Assembly (NCBI GenBank): GCA_964036295.1
Contig: OZ038470.1
Location: forward strand, 10,817,078 to 10,881,077
Reading direction: 5' to 3'
Length of the DNA stretch: 64,000 nucleotides
Source of the DNA: Plumapathes pennacea
Taxonomy: Eukaryota; Cnidaria; Anthozoa; Antipatharia; Myriopathidae
Of this stretch, positions 1-6,000 are shown one piece after another. The notes under the pieces are model-generated. The model did not search any database. It saw only the letters and a program-made list of their open reading frames with translations, and was not told the DNA's origin. Numbering within the stretch: position 1 is the stretch's first letter; each line of letters begins with the position of its first letter. Made by a program: the position numbers and the translations under genes.

Positions 1-3000
1 GTATCCAGGCCAACTCCTCCTCCAAGTCTTCGAGGAACTGTTGGAGCAAGAGGGACTGGTCGAGCATTTCGCGCCGAGACGAAAGCGGCGCTGTCAACTG
101 CTCGAACCTTTCCACAATAGCTCGCGCTCTTTCATCAATTTCATCTTTCTGGAAATGATCCGCCTCGACGAATTCCTCTGCTTGTCTCAAGATTTCTGTC
201 ACGCGTTCCTCGTGTGACGTTGCGTGACTCTCCACCAGCTGATGTTTCTTCAACAAGTTTGTCGCACTTCGCACGTCTTTCCCATAATCCTTAGAGGCCA
301 TGCTCTTTTCCACTTCATCGATCCAGGTCTCCAGGTCTGACACGTTTCGTTCGAACGTCTGCTTTTGAATGGCTTCCTTGAGGCGTTGGCCCTTATTGGC
401 TGACATATCCGTCAGCAGATGCCACAGATCCTCAAGGTCCTTTATTCGTGTGGCCACGGACTCGTTGGGCTTTGGTGAGGTACTCTGCAAAGTGTGCCCT
501 TCTCCGAGCACCGCGTCAAGTTGTCCCTTATTGGCTGTGAGCTCCGCTTCAAACGTCTGGTGCTTCTGGAGTTTCTGTTGGAGATTGGAGACTTCTCTGT
601 AGGACGCTTCGGAAGCGAACTGCAACTTTTCGTTCATCCACGATTCCATCTGTGGGAGAAAATGAACAAAAGGGAAATTTGTTTATTTCTCTGTGAGCTA
701 TGAAGTTAAATGGGAACCGCCAGGAGTCCACCACTTGAAGCAGCCAGCTCTTCAAACTTCAACACCAAAAAGCAAACAAAAACAAAAACATACCTCCTTA
801 GCATTCCGAAGAAACTGAAAGAGCAGTTTAGACTCGCCCAAGTTCCCGCTTTTATCTGCGGCCAGCTGCTTTAGCCTCCGCCATCTTTCCATGACCTCAT
901 CAAGCTGATTTCGAATGCGCGCGGAATCGTAATGCCCTTGTTGTATGAGCTGGTCAGCGGCGTGCTCCAAAGCTTTTATAGTTTCTTCGTAGGCAGCCAG
1001 TGATTTCTCAAAGTTCACTTGTGACCGTAGGAGCGTTTCTACTGCGTCTAAACTATCGTCCAGGTCTTTTCTCTGTAACAAACTTTCCTTGGCGGTTATC
1101 CATGTTTTGGCTTGATCAGCATCACGAAGAAAAACCTTGGACGAGGAAACAGAACTGACATTAAACGCTGCCATTTTGGTTTTATAGCGGCTTTCAATTG
1201 GATGCCATAATGCCCTTACTTTTGGAGCTGTTATTGCTTTGGTTTTACGAAAATCAATAAAAGCCCTGAATATTGAACTATAAGGGGATCAAGGTCACAG
1301 CAGCTTAGTTAACCAGCTAAAGAAGTTTTTCCCGTGATAAAGTCTTTAGAAACCTTCAATTCTTAGCATTTGCATTGTAAGTGAAACCGCTTTTATTACA
1401 TGTCCATGATTAGTACATTACTTGTGTGGTTGGCTATAAACACTTTCATAAGTTGTTATGATGATGATGATGATGATGATGATGATGATGATGATGATGA
1501 TGATGATGATGATGATGATGATGATGATGATGATGATGATGATGATGATGATGATGATGATGATGATGATGATGATGATGATGATGATGATGATGATGAT
1601 GATGATGATGATGATGATGATGATGATGATGATGATGATGATGATGATGATGATGATGATGATGATGATGATGATGATGATGATGATGATGATGATGATG
1701 ATGATGATGATGATGATGATGATGATGATGATGATGATGATGATGATGATGATGATGATGATGATGATGATGATGATGATGATGATGATGATGATGATGA
1801 TGATGATGATGATGATGATGATGATGATGATGATGATGATGATGATGATGATGATGATGATGATGATGATGATGATGATGATGATGATGATGATGATGAT
1901 GATGATGATGATGATGATGATGATGATGATGATGATGATGATGATGATGATGATGATGATGATGATGATGATGATGATGATGATGATGATGATGATGATG
2001 ATGATGATGATGATGATGATGATGATGGGTGATGATGATGATGATGATGATGATATAGGGATGATGAGATGATGATGATGATGATGATGATGATATTTGA
2101 TGATGATGTGATGGAATGGATGAGATGATGATGATGATATCAATCATCATCATCATCATCATCATCATCATCATCTCATCATCATCATTTATCATCAGAT
2201 GATGATGATGATGATGATGATGATGATGATGATGATGATGATGATGATGATGATGATGATGATGATGATGATGATGATGATGATGATGATGATGATGATG
2301 ATGATGATGATGATGATGATGATGATGATGATGATGATGATGATGATGATGATGATGATGATGATGATGATGATGATGATGATGATGATGATGATGATGA
2401 TGATGATGATGATGATGATGATGATGATGATGATGATGATGATGATGATGATGATGATGATGATGATGATGATGATGATGATGATGATGATGATGATGAT
2501 GATGATGATGATGATGATGATGATGATGATGATGATGATGATGATGATGATGATGATGATGATGATGATGATGATGATGATGATGATGATGATGATGATG
2601 ATGATGATGATGATGATGATGATGATGATGATGATGATGATGATGATGATGATGATGATGATGATGATGATGATGATGATGATGATGATGATGATGATGA
2701 TGATGATGATGATGATGATGATGATGATGATGATGATGATGATGATGATGATGATGATGATGATGATGATGATGATGATGATGATGATGATGATGATGAT
2801 GATGATGATGATGATGATGATGATGATGATGATGATGATGATGATGATGATGATGATGATGATGATGATGATGATGATGATGATGATGATGATGATGATG
2901 ATGATGATGATGATGATGATGATGATGATGATGATGATGATGATGATGATGATGATGATGATGATGATGATGATGATGATGATGATGATGATGATGATGA

Positions 3001-6000
3001 TGATGATGATGATGATGATGATGATGATGATGATGATGATGATGATGATGATGATGATGATGATGATGATGATGATGATGATGATGATGATGATGATGAT
3101 GATGATGATGATGATGATGATGATGATGATGATGATGATGATGATGATGATGATGATGATGATGATGATGATGATGATGATGATGATGATGATGATGATG
3201 ATGATGATGATGATGATGATGATGATGATGATGATGATGATGATGATGATGATGATGATGATGATGATGATGATGATGATGATGATGATGATGATGATGA
3301 TGATGATGATGATGATGATGATGATGATGATGATGATGATGATGATGATGATGATGATGATGATGATGATGATGATGATGATGATGATGATGATGATGAT
3401 GATGATGATGATGATGATGATGATGATGATGATGATGATGATGATGATGATGATGATGATGATGATGATGATGATGATGATGATGATGATGATGATGATG
3501 ATGATGATGATGATGATGATGATGATGATGATGATGATGATGATGATGATGATGATGATGATGATGATGATGATGATGATGATGATGATGATGATGATGA
3601 TGATGATGATGATGATGATGATGATGATGATGATGATGATGATGATGATGATGATGATGATGATGATGATGATGATGATGATGATGATGATGATGATGAT
3701 GATGATGATGATGATGATGATGATGATGATGATGATGATGATGATGATGATGATGATGATGATGATGATGATGATGATGATGATGATGATGATGATGATG
3801 ATGATGATGATGATGATGATGATGATGATGATGATGATGATGATGATGATGATGATGATGATGATGATGATGATGATGATGATGATGATGATGATGATGA
3901 TGATGATGATGATGATGATGATGATGATGATGATGATGATGATGATGATGATGATGATGATGATGATGATGATGATGATGATGATGATGATGATGATGAT
4001 GATGATGATGATGATGATGATGATGATGATGATGATGATGATGATGATGATGATGATGATGATGATGATGATGATGATGATGATGATGATGATGATGATG
4101 ATGATGATGATGATGATGATGATGATGATGATGATGATGATGATGATGATGATGATGATGATGATGGTCTTGAGTGGTCTTTCTAGACTTCAGGTGTGTA
4201 CATTTTCACACACAAACAAAACTGCCGTTTTAAAATGAATGAAGTATTGACGTTCGCTCCATTTAACTTTACCTGCAGTTTGTACGTTTGATTAAGTTGC
4301 GTCTCTTTTTCCCGCCACAACTCCAGGAGTTCCGTCATTGTAGTGCCCAGTTCCTCCACATTCTCTGTTATTTCGTCGCCCGCAAAGTGCCCTTGGTCAA
4401 CGAGACTCAGGCCAAAGGCCTGGGAACTACTGAATGACTCTTGTTTGGCATCAATTTCACCCTGAGCCAAGCAAACAAGTAAATAAACAAACTACGAAAC
4501 TATTGGGCTCTAACAAAAAAAAAAAAAAAGGTGATTGTTGAGTGATTTTCATGAAACCAAAGCAAAACCAAGTATTTCACGTTTGGTTTTACTTTGAAGG
4601 AAAGGCCAATGAACAGTGCACGAAAATGTCGTTGCCACTTGCTAGCTTGCGCGACCAAATTGCCATTAGTTTTGTTCTTTCTTCTGATTTGACAAAACCT
4701 GCCAAACCTGTTTAGACCAATCAAAAAGCGTAGGAAATGGACAACTAAAGCAATCACTCGACAGTCGTCCGAAAACTGATCCACAGCCTAAATTAACGCG
4801 ATCAACAACCATAAAGATCCAAGTTAAAGATCCAAACTAAATCCCTCAATCAGAAACTCGTTCCCAACCTTCCTCTCCACGTGTAACTCCAGCAACGCTT
4901 CGGCATCTTTGACACCTTTCGCCGGGTCTACAGATGACATGCGTGTTGACAGGTCGGTCATCCATGATGTCAGGTCTCTGTAGTCTACCAAAAATATCTG
5001 AAGCAGTCGACTCGCCTCCAGCTTCTCCTTCCTGTGAAGACAAGCAAAATTTTAAAATGCCCTCACACTGATGATGGTATTGCGGGCCCATGTTCACATT
5101 TACTTTTGCTGGGGTGCGTCCGCTGACTTGTCACTACTTGCTATATTCAGTAAATCTTCTAAGTTTGTAATAATCTCGTTTCCCAAAAATACGGATAAAA
5201 CAGTCCGCCGTTTTTGTATGGCGTGTCGTGAGGAGGTCGCTTGCGACAATCGTAAGCAACAACCCCACCGTGTAAATTGGCCTTTAGTCATACTTTTTTG
5301 TGTGAGTATACAACAGCTTGGTGAATTGAACTGCAGTGTACATGTTTGATACTACTCTTCCATTCATTGCAAACACCAAAATGTTTGCTTAAGTAGTTTT
5401 CATCTCAAATTGGGGCCCTTCAACCTTGAATGTGTTATCAAACTTGCAAAAATGATACGTGACAATGAAGAGATGCGAAGCAAAATAAAATACCTTGTAC
5501 GATGTACTGAAGTGCAGTTAAAAACAAAATCATCCAATCACGCCCGTTTTCTCACCTTCCATCGAACAAGTCATTGAGTCGTTCCCAGCTTTCTATGATC
5601 TCCGCCTGTTCGGTCTGGACCGTCTGTGCCATATGAGGCTGGGACCGAACAAGCCGATTAGCCTCGCTCTCGAGTATTTCCATTTGATCCTCGATTACAG
5701 TCAGATCTCGTTCCAAGTCATCGTGTTTCCTTAGCAACGCCTCGACCCCAGGTAGGTCTTTCCCAAAGTCCTTGCTGGACAGTCGTAACGACTAAAGGAA
5801 AAACATGCAAGAAAATCATGGAAGAGACTGAGTTAGCTCTCTAGTTAACACTACATCAAATAGGTTGCATTCTATTCTTGGTTTTCATATGAACTGCAGT
5901 TGGTTTTACCCACAACTGGATACAAATCGACCAAATCAGTTTGAAGCTGCCAACATCCGGTTTCTACACAACCAAACATATAAACTTATAACTCCTGAGC

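Follow-up and report, generated by a model that had tools for sequence, protein, structure and literature searches.

The GAT/ATC array within a spectrin gene of Plumapathes pennacea is probably a naturally expanded intronic microsatellite that belongs to a set of kilobase-scale arrays at unrelated loci, and no function is needed to account for it. It lies in a 64,000-nucleotide stretch of contig OZ038470.1, which is referred to here as the window. Tandem Repeats Finder reported a single period-3 array at window positions 1458-4166 (904 copies, matches 98%), and this program and an exact period-3 scan agreed on a 3-bp unit repeated head to tail, as expected of a microsatellite. The array comprises 2709 bp and consists of two perfect blocks joined by an irregular seam (Table 1). 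Block 2 does not contain a single substitution over its 1969 bp, and runs of such a length far exceed chance expectation. Within an array at 1458-4166, the original prediction had given 190 perfect units for block 1 and 656 for block 2 (2199-4166), and the period-3 scan bore out these coordinates and unit counts. In addition, the scan revealed an inverted (ATC)n segment inside 2028-2197 that had been overlooked; its longest perfect run extends from 2143 to 2175. The second-longest microsatellite of the window is an imperfect (ATT)n array of 720 bp at 26922-27641, detected by Tandem Repeats Finder.

Two exons on the minus strand flank the array, one ending at 4273 and one starting at 1135, and joining them preserves the open spectrin frame. 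Judged from this join and the splice dinucleotides, the array is located inside a predicted spliced intron (1136-4272). It makes up 86% of the 3137 bp of this intron, which bears out the earlier statement that it occupies most of it, and without the array the intron would measure 428 bp. The corresponding pre-mRNA would carry (AUC)n with 846 perfect units across the two blocks, in agreement with the more than 800 AUC repeats proposed before. A further exon at 8-658 matches the Pfam Spectrin family (E 3.4e-38), and the next downstream intron measures about 137 bp, its boundaries being approximate. Three further exons that resemble SH3 and CH domains by eye gave no Pfam match. Between same-strand spectrin-like coding segments, a minisatellite with a 36-bp period of GAT-like units is found at 8421-8581. 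Other genes recognized in the window by Pfam are an EHD-family gene on the minus strand (45063-45965; EHD_N and Dynamin_N) and, on the plus strand (56262-58064), a gene encoding CAF1 and RNA_bind domains, which we take to be PARN-like.

Table 1. Features of the spectrin intron and its array in the window, and loci grouped by the repeat strand found on the sense side of the gene.
Feature	Position	Strand	Basis
Spectrin intron, 3137 bp, begins GTAAAG, ends CCAAG	1136..4272	-	In-frame exon join and splice dinucleotides
Upstream spectrin exon (part), ending ...NQTYKLQ	4273..4462	-	Open frame running on into the next exon
Downstream spectrin exon (far end approximate)	796..1135	-	Pfam Spectrin PF00435, E 1.6e-23
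Block 1, perfect (ATG)190, 570 bp	1458..2027	+	Exact period-3 scan
Seam, frame-shifted GAT fragments and inverted (ATC)n segment	2028..2197	+	5 phase shifts, 2 inversions, 0 in phase
Block 2, perfect (GAT)n, 1969 bp, 656 whole ATG units from 2199	2198..4166	+	Period-3 scan
(CAT) sense loci: window, L012, L014, L177, L180, L181, L185, L186			Pfam E <0.001
(ATG) sense loci: L011, L017, L172, L173, L178			Pfam E <0.001

The complete assembly (290 Mb; 24 contigs, of which 12 are large) was searched for the same motif. The 30-base pattern (GAT)10 matched at 38945 positions on both strands, compared with 3107 positions for the control pattern read backwards. For the 195-base pattern (ATG)65, 16032 matching positions were found, of which by arithmetic about 718 are contributed by the window array. 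The comparison patterns of this length were less frequent, (AAT)65 matching at 2869 positions and (GTA)65, the control read backwards, at 1187; at long lengths the GAT/ATC motif thus exceeds both AAT and ACT in these pattern counts. All 1187 matches of the (GTA)65 control lie on one strand, so that long ACT-class arrays are probably present as well. Edges of (GAT)n arrays were collected for seven of nine edge classes (all except C+TGA and G+GAT) with runs of at least 174-195 bp, which resulted in 122 edges (14, 4, 40, 42, 10, 7 and 5 per class). An array can possess several edges, and the window array contributes two.

The lengths of the arrays behind these edges were determined by reading and by probing. 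Eighteen edges were read together with their loci; besides the window, the runs there measured at most 308 bp. Twenty edges were read from +150 to +900, and five of them were pure throughout, with an additional locus (L060) pure to about 721 bp. Furthermore, 60-base probes were placed at +700 for 80 of the 82 A+ATG and G+TGA edges, yielding nine pure positions, one N stretch and 70 impure positions. Six of the nine edges pure at +700 were still pure at +2000. An array on contig C5 (near 25002500-25008560) was pure at +1500, +2500, +4000 and +6000 and impure at +7000; three other arrays were pure at +1500 and impure at +2500, and one more had ended before +1500. Most of the long sibling arrays were sampled in this way at points, so that their continuity between the probes is presumed. 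Altogether, 17 of the 120 examined edges belong to arrays that reach about 700 bp or more, including a 2558-bp array at locus L027 (C1:1736777-1739334) and block 2 of the window. The proposal that natural trinucleotide arrays of this length and purity are rare therefore does not hold within this genome. Eight other arrays equal or exceed block 2 in length (one was read whole, and seven were sampled by point probes), showing that block 2 is not the longest of the genome. The perfect (TCA)n array of L027 occupies 96% of a 2665-bp intron in another gene, and the open frames on either side share a phase; this gene looks coiled-coil-like by eye and has no Pfam family above the cut-off. At L177, the array is located between two exons which correspond to consecutive portions of a single fibrillar collagen domain in Pfam.

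The purity of the array can be translated into an age. Assuming a neutral rate of 5e-9 substitutions per base per generation and no turnover, a 1969-bp array is calculated to have a 95% probability of acquiring a substitution in the course of about 3e5 generations. That none is present argues for recent growth or for turnover. Eight sibling loci and the window were inspected for exact duplications that include interruptions. Such duplications were found in four of the siblings (L022, 182 bp; L015, 154 bp; L025, 128 bp; L012, 57 bp), while none above 27 bp was found in L016, L172, L170, L188 or the window. The duplicated blocks are largely pure repeat, each being interrupted at 4 to 10 break positions, and they point to block duplication as the process that left them. 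A short tract was probably enlarged by repeated block duplication into a long array, with large slippage, unequal exchange and break-induced copying as candidate routes, and a pure sequence is what recent growth of this type would leave. The array looks like a striking yet ordinary outcome of repeat growth, the exact length of which should not be trusted.

The original prediction had offered youth or homogenization on the one hand and an assembly or polishing problem on the other. The absence of substitutions and the duplicated blocks in four of eight siblings favor the former. The latter is supported as well, but locally, by the seam and by one sibling array that borders an N stretch. Across the interruptions of 59 sibling loci, the repeat phase is kept in 141 of 157 cases, shifted in 15 (seven of them in L022) and inverted in one (L023). 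In the window seam, none of the seven interruptions is in phase, five being shifted and two inverted. This difference is significant in a Fisher test (p 4.4e-7), which treats interruptions as independent although the seam may represent a single event. The left inverted junction of the seam is a near-perfect hairpin (-20.8 kcal/mol, z -3.8 against shuffles). Two origins of the seam are considered: end-joining or template switching within the array may have left it as a scar, or it may be a join made by the assembly in a longer array. A read join, a low-quality consensus patch and a scar of error-prone fold-back repair would all yield such a structure. For the number of units this means uncertainty, and the unit number is probably also polymorphic. 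At L023 (positions 1454-1768 of the locus; contig C2 near 15846908), a 221-bp (ATC)n run abuts an inverted 96-bp (ATG)n run. Fold-back junctions were considered as a common mechanism and rejected, since a search for the perfect 28-base CAT|ATG junction, restricted to this perfect form, found one genome site, which is L023.

The kilobase length and the purity of the array might themselves be largely a product of assembly or polishing, with a true array that is shorter, longer or interrupted, a consensus that put perfect repeat in place of noisy reads and a seam that is an imperfectly assembled join. The frame shifts and the inverted segment of the seam, unlike anything usual in the siblings, fit this explanation, as does a sibling array bordering an N stretch; moreover, all genome evidence derives from one assembly consensus, in which a systematic effect on this motif could occur. 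We nevertheless regard this explanation as unlikely. Seventeen long arrays at separate loci speak against it, and the sibling loci retain ordinary in-phase interruptions and, in some cases, duplicated blocks, showing that polishing did not erase variants everywhere. In addition, independent counts from short reads, tabulated in PMC4226868, show the motif to be abundant in an anemone as well. The N stretch adjoins a (CAT)n array on C2 near 13724068, and two probes placed beyond it, by about 200 bp and by 2 kb, also returned N. It is weak evidence: it may be a gap, but withheld sequence is likewise given as N in this genome, and five of the contig starts that were read consist of N, too.

Natural expansion of an intronic repeat, the reading preferred here, raises the question of tolerance. 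GT and AG are absent from both strands of the repeat, so growth of the array adds no canonical splice dinucleotides. RNA folding predicted 0 kcal/mol for (AUC)20, -12.1 for (AUG)20, a weak hairpin, and -25.1 for (CUG)20, a strong one; the sense (AUC)n transcript is thus predicted to lack a hairpin of the CUG type. For single-stranded DNA, the predicted minimum was 0 for both (ATC)20 and (ATG)20 and -19.8 for (CTG)20. Hairpin-driven expansion has been proposed for CTG repeats. Since no hairpins are predicted for (ATC) or (ATG) DNA, ordinary hairpin-driven expansion finds no support here. The intron could tolerate the array if no new canonical splice sites arise and the (AUC)n RNA is unfolded as predicted, and it is plausible that these two properties together may explain the tolerance.

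A wider proposal can be made only tentatively, and we consider it doubtful as it stands: GAT/ATC expansion may be continuing, motif-specific and genome-wide. It would have produced many arrays independently, with several in introns and with lengths of disease scale or greater (0.7 to >6 kb), and a viable wild animal would bear them because neither strand of the motif contains splice dinucleotides and its sense RNA is unstructured. If true, this genome-wide expansion would offer a model, found in nature, of how expanded repeats are tolerated. Provided that the lengths are real, one genome would harbor at least 17 arrays with lengths from about 700 bp upwards, some of them within introns of ordinary genes, which would serve as natural tests of how introns tolerate repeats with respect to motif, splice dinucleotides and RNA folding. 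If they are not real, the arrays are a warning against taking pure-repeat lengths from an assembly.

The motif YCAY is recognized by Nova proteins, and the dense UCAU sites of a sense (AUC)n might serve as binding sites for a Nova-like KH protein and in this way affect splicing or retention of the spectrin intron. The intron contains 881 YCAY tetramers, and (CAT) is the sense strand in both introns for which boundaries were read (window and L027). This density is, however, an automatic consequence of the repeat, and the orientation is mixed: where the gene strand is supported by Pfam, eight loci carry (CAT) and five (ATG) on the sense strand (Table 1), which does not amount to a clear bias. 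A functional role of this kind is highly improbable, and no evidence for any function of the array was found. A sense-strand bias with (CAT) mostly on the coding strand had been suggested by a home-made codon score; its filter discards Asp-rich frames and thereby leans towards (CAT), and the claim was abandoned after restriction to Pfam-supported loci. The Pfam search comprised 42 sibling-locus segments chosen by eye, 39 of them from a list of 123 and the others being L186:1312-1485, L001:1910-2254 and a hand-read segment of L016, the latter two of which gave no Pfam family. L023, which shows both orientations, and loci without Pfam support stand outside the orientation count; the latter, where legible by eye, are mostly (CAT), for example L001, L018, L019, L025, L027 and L184, with L187 in the opposite orientation.

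The array might also derive from a transposable element present throughout the genome, as its tail or as a segment inside it, since some arrays have dispersed elements of about 210 bp in their vicinity. These elements are located at varying distances from the arrays, however, and the flanks of the window array (1136-1457 and 4167-4272) matched none of the 41 other loci compared. Across the window and these 41 loci, no shared sequence at the array borders was seen, as a transposon-borne repeat would be expected to show, and the remaining flank matches among the 41 loci are degenerate GAT flanks or dispersed elements. This flank comparison disfavors a transposon tail and leaves the transposon origin scarcely credible. 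The element, up to about 210 bp long, is found in the window at 16560-16748, 16767-16940, 20285-20488, 51350-51479 and 62257-62413 and also in L010, L014 and L018; its size is SINE- or MITE-like.

Large intronic expansions are known from human genes such as FXN (GAA) and CNBP (CCTG), the motifs of which form triplexes or hairpins. The window array resembles them in being a probable large intronic expansion and differs in that its (AUC)n RNA is predicted to be unstructured. A natural intronic expansion has been described for IIL1 of the Arabidopsis strain Bur-0, where 200+ GAA/TTC repeats are present and other alleles are short (PMC5006647). The window array would likewise be a natural large intronic trinucleotide expansion; in IIL1 as described there the motif is GAA/TTC and the transcript is reduced, whereas here the motif is GAT/ATC and many loci are involved at once (PMC5006647). 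Atlantic cod provides a genome with unusually dense tandem repeats, which broke earlier assemblies (PMC5241972); in the present genome, one trinucleotide yields kilobases of perfect repeat. The same motif class as in the window leads the trinucleotides of the sea anemone Metridium, with 157.6 counts/Mbp for ATC and 20.7 for AAT (PMC4226868, Table 4). Metridium was surveyed there with 454 shotgun reads, which are too short for kilobase arrays. In the same tabulated counts, AAT leads in Nematostella (180.2 vs 82.5 for ATC), and AAT rather than ATC also leads in Acropora (PMC4226868), which counts against the natural expansion favored here. A literature search with combined terms found neither papers on ATC/GAT repeats nor papers on kilobase-scale microsatellites. 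The window array is a large new example of a known phenomenon.

Other repeats and contigs were noted during the analysis. Tandem Repeats Finder reported minisatellites at window positions 51027-51317 and 52822-53069, whose units measure 78 bp and about 20-106 bp. Contig C24 (17711 bp), the first 10 kb of which correspond to L048, is mitochondrial; most of its long frames lie on one strand, and its features suggest a hexacoral, for instance a sea anemone. A search for the GFP family gave no match, and neither did its controls, so that it carries no weight. By eye, it presumably contains a LAGLIDADG-like frame inside cox1, reads TGA as W and has AGR at apparently conserved Arg positions.
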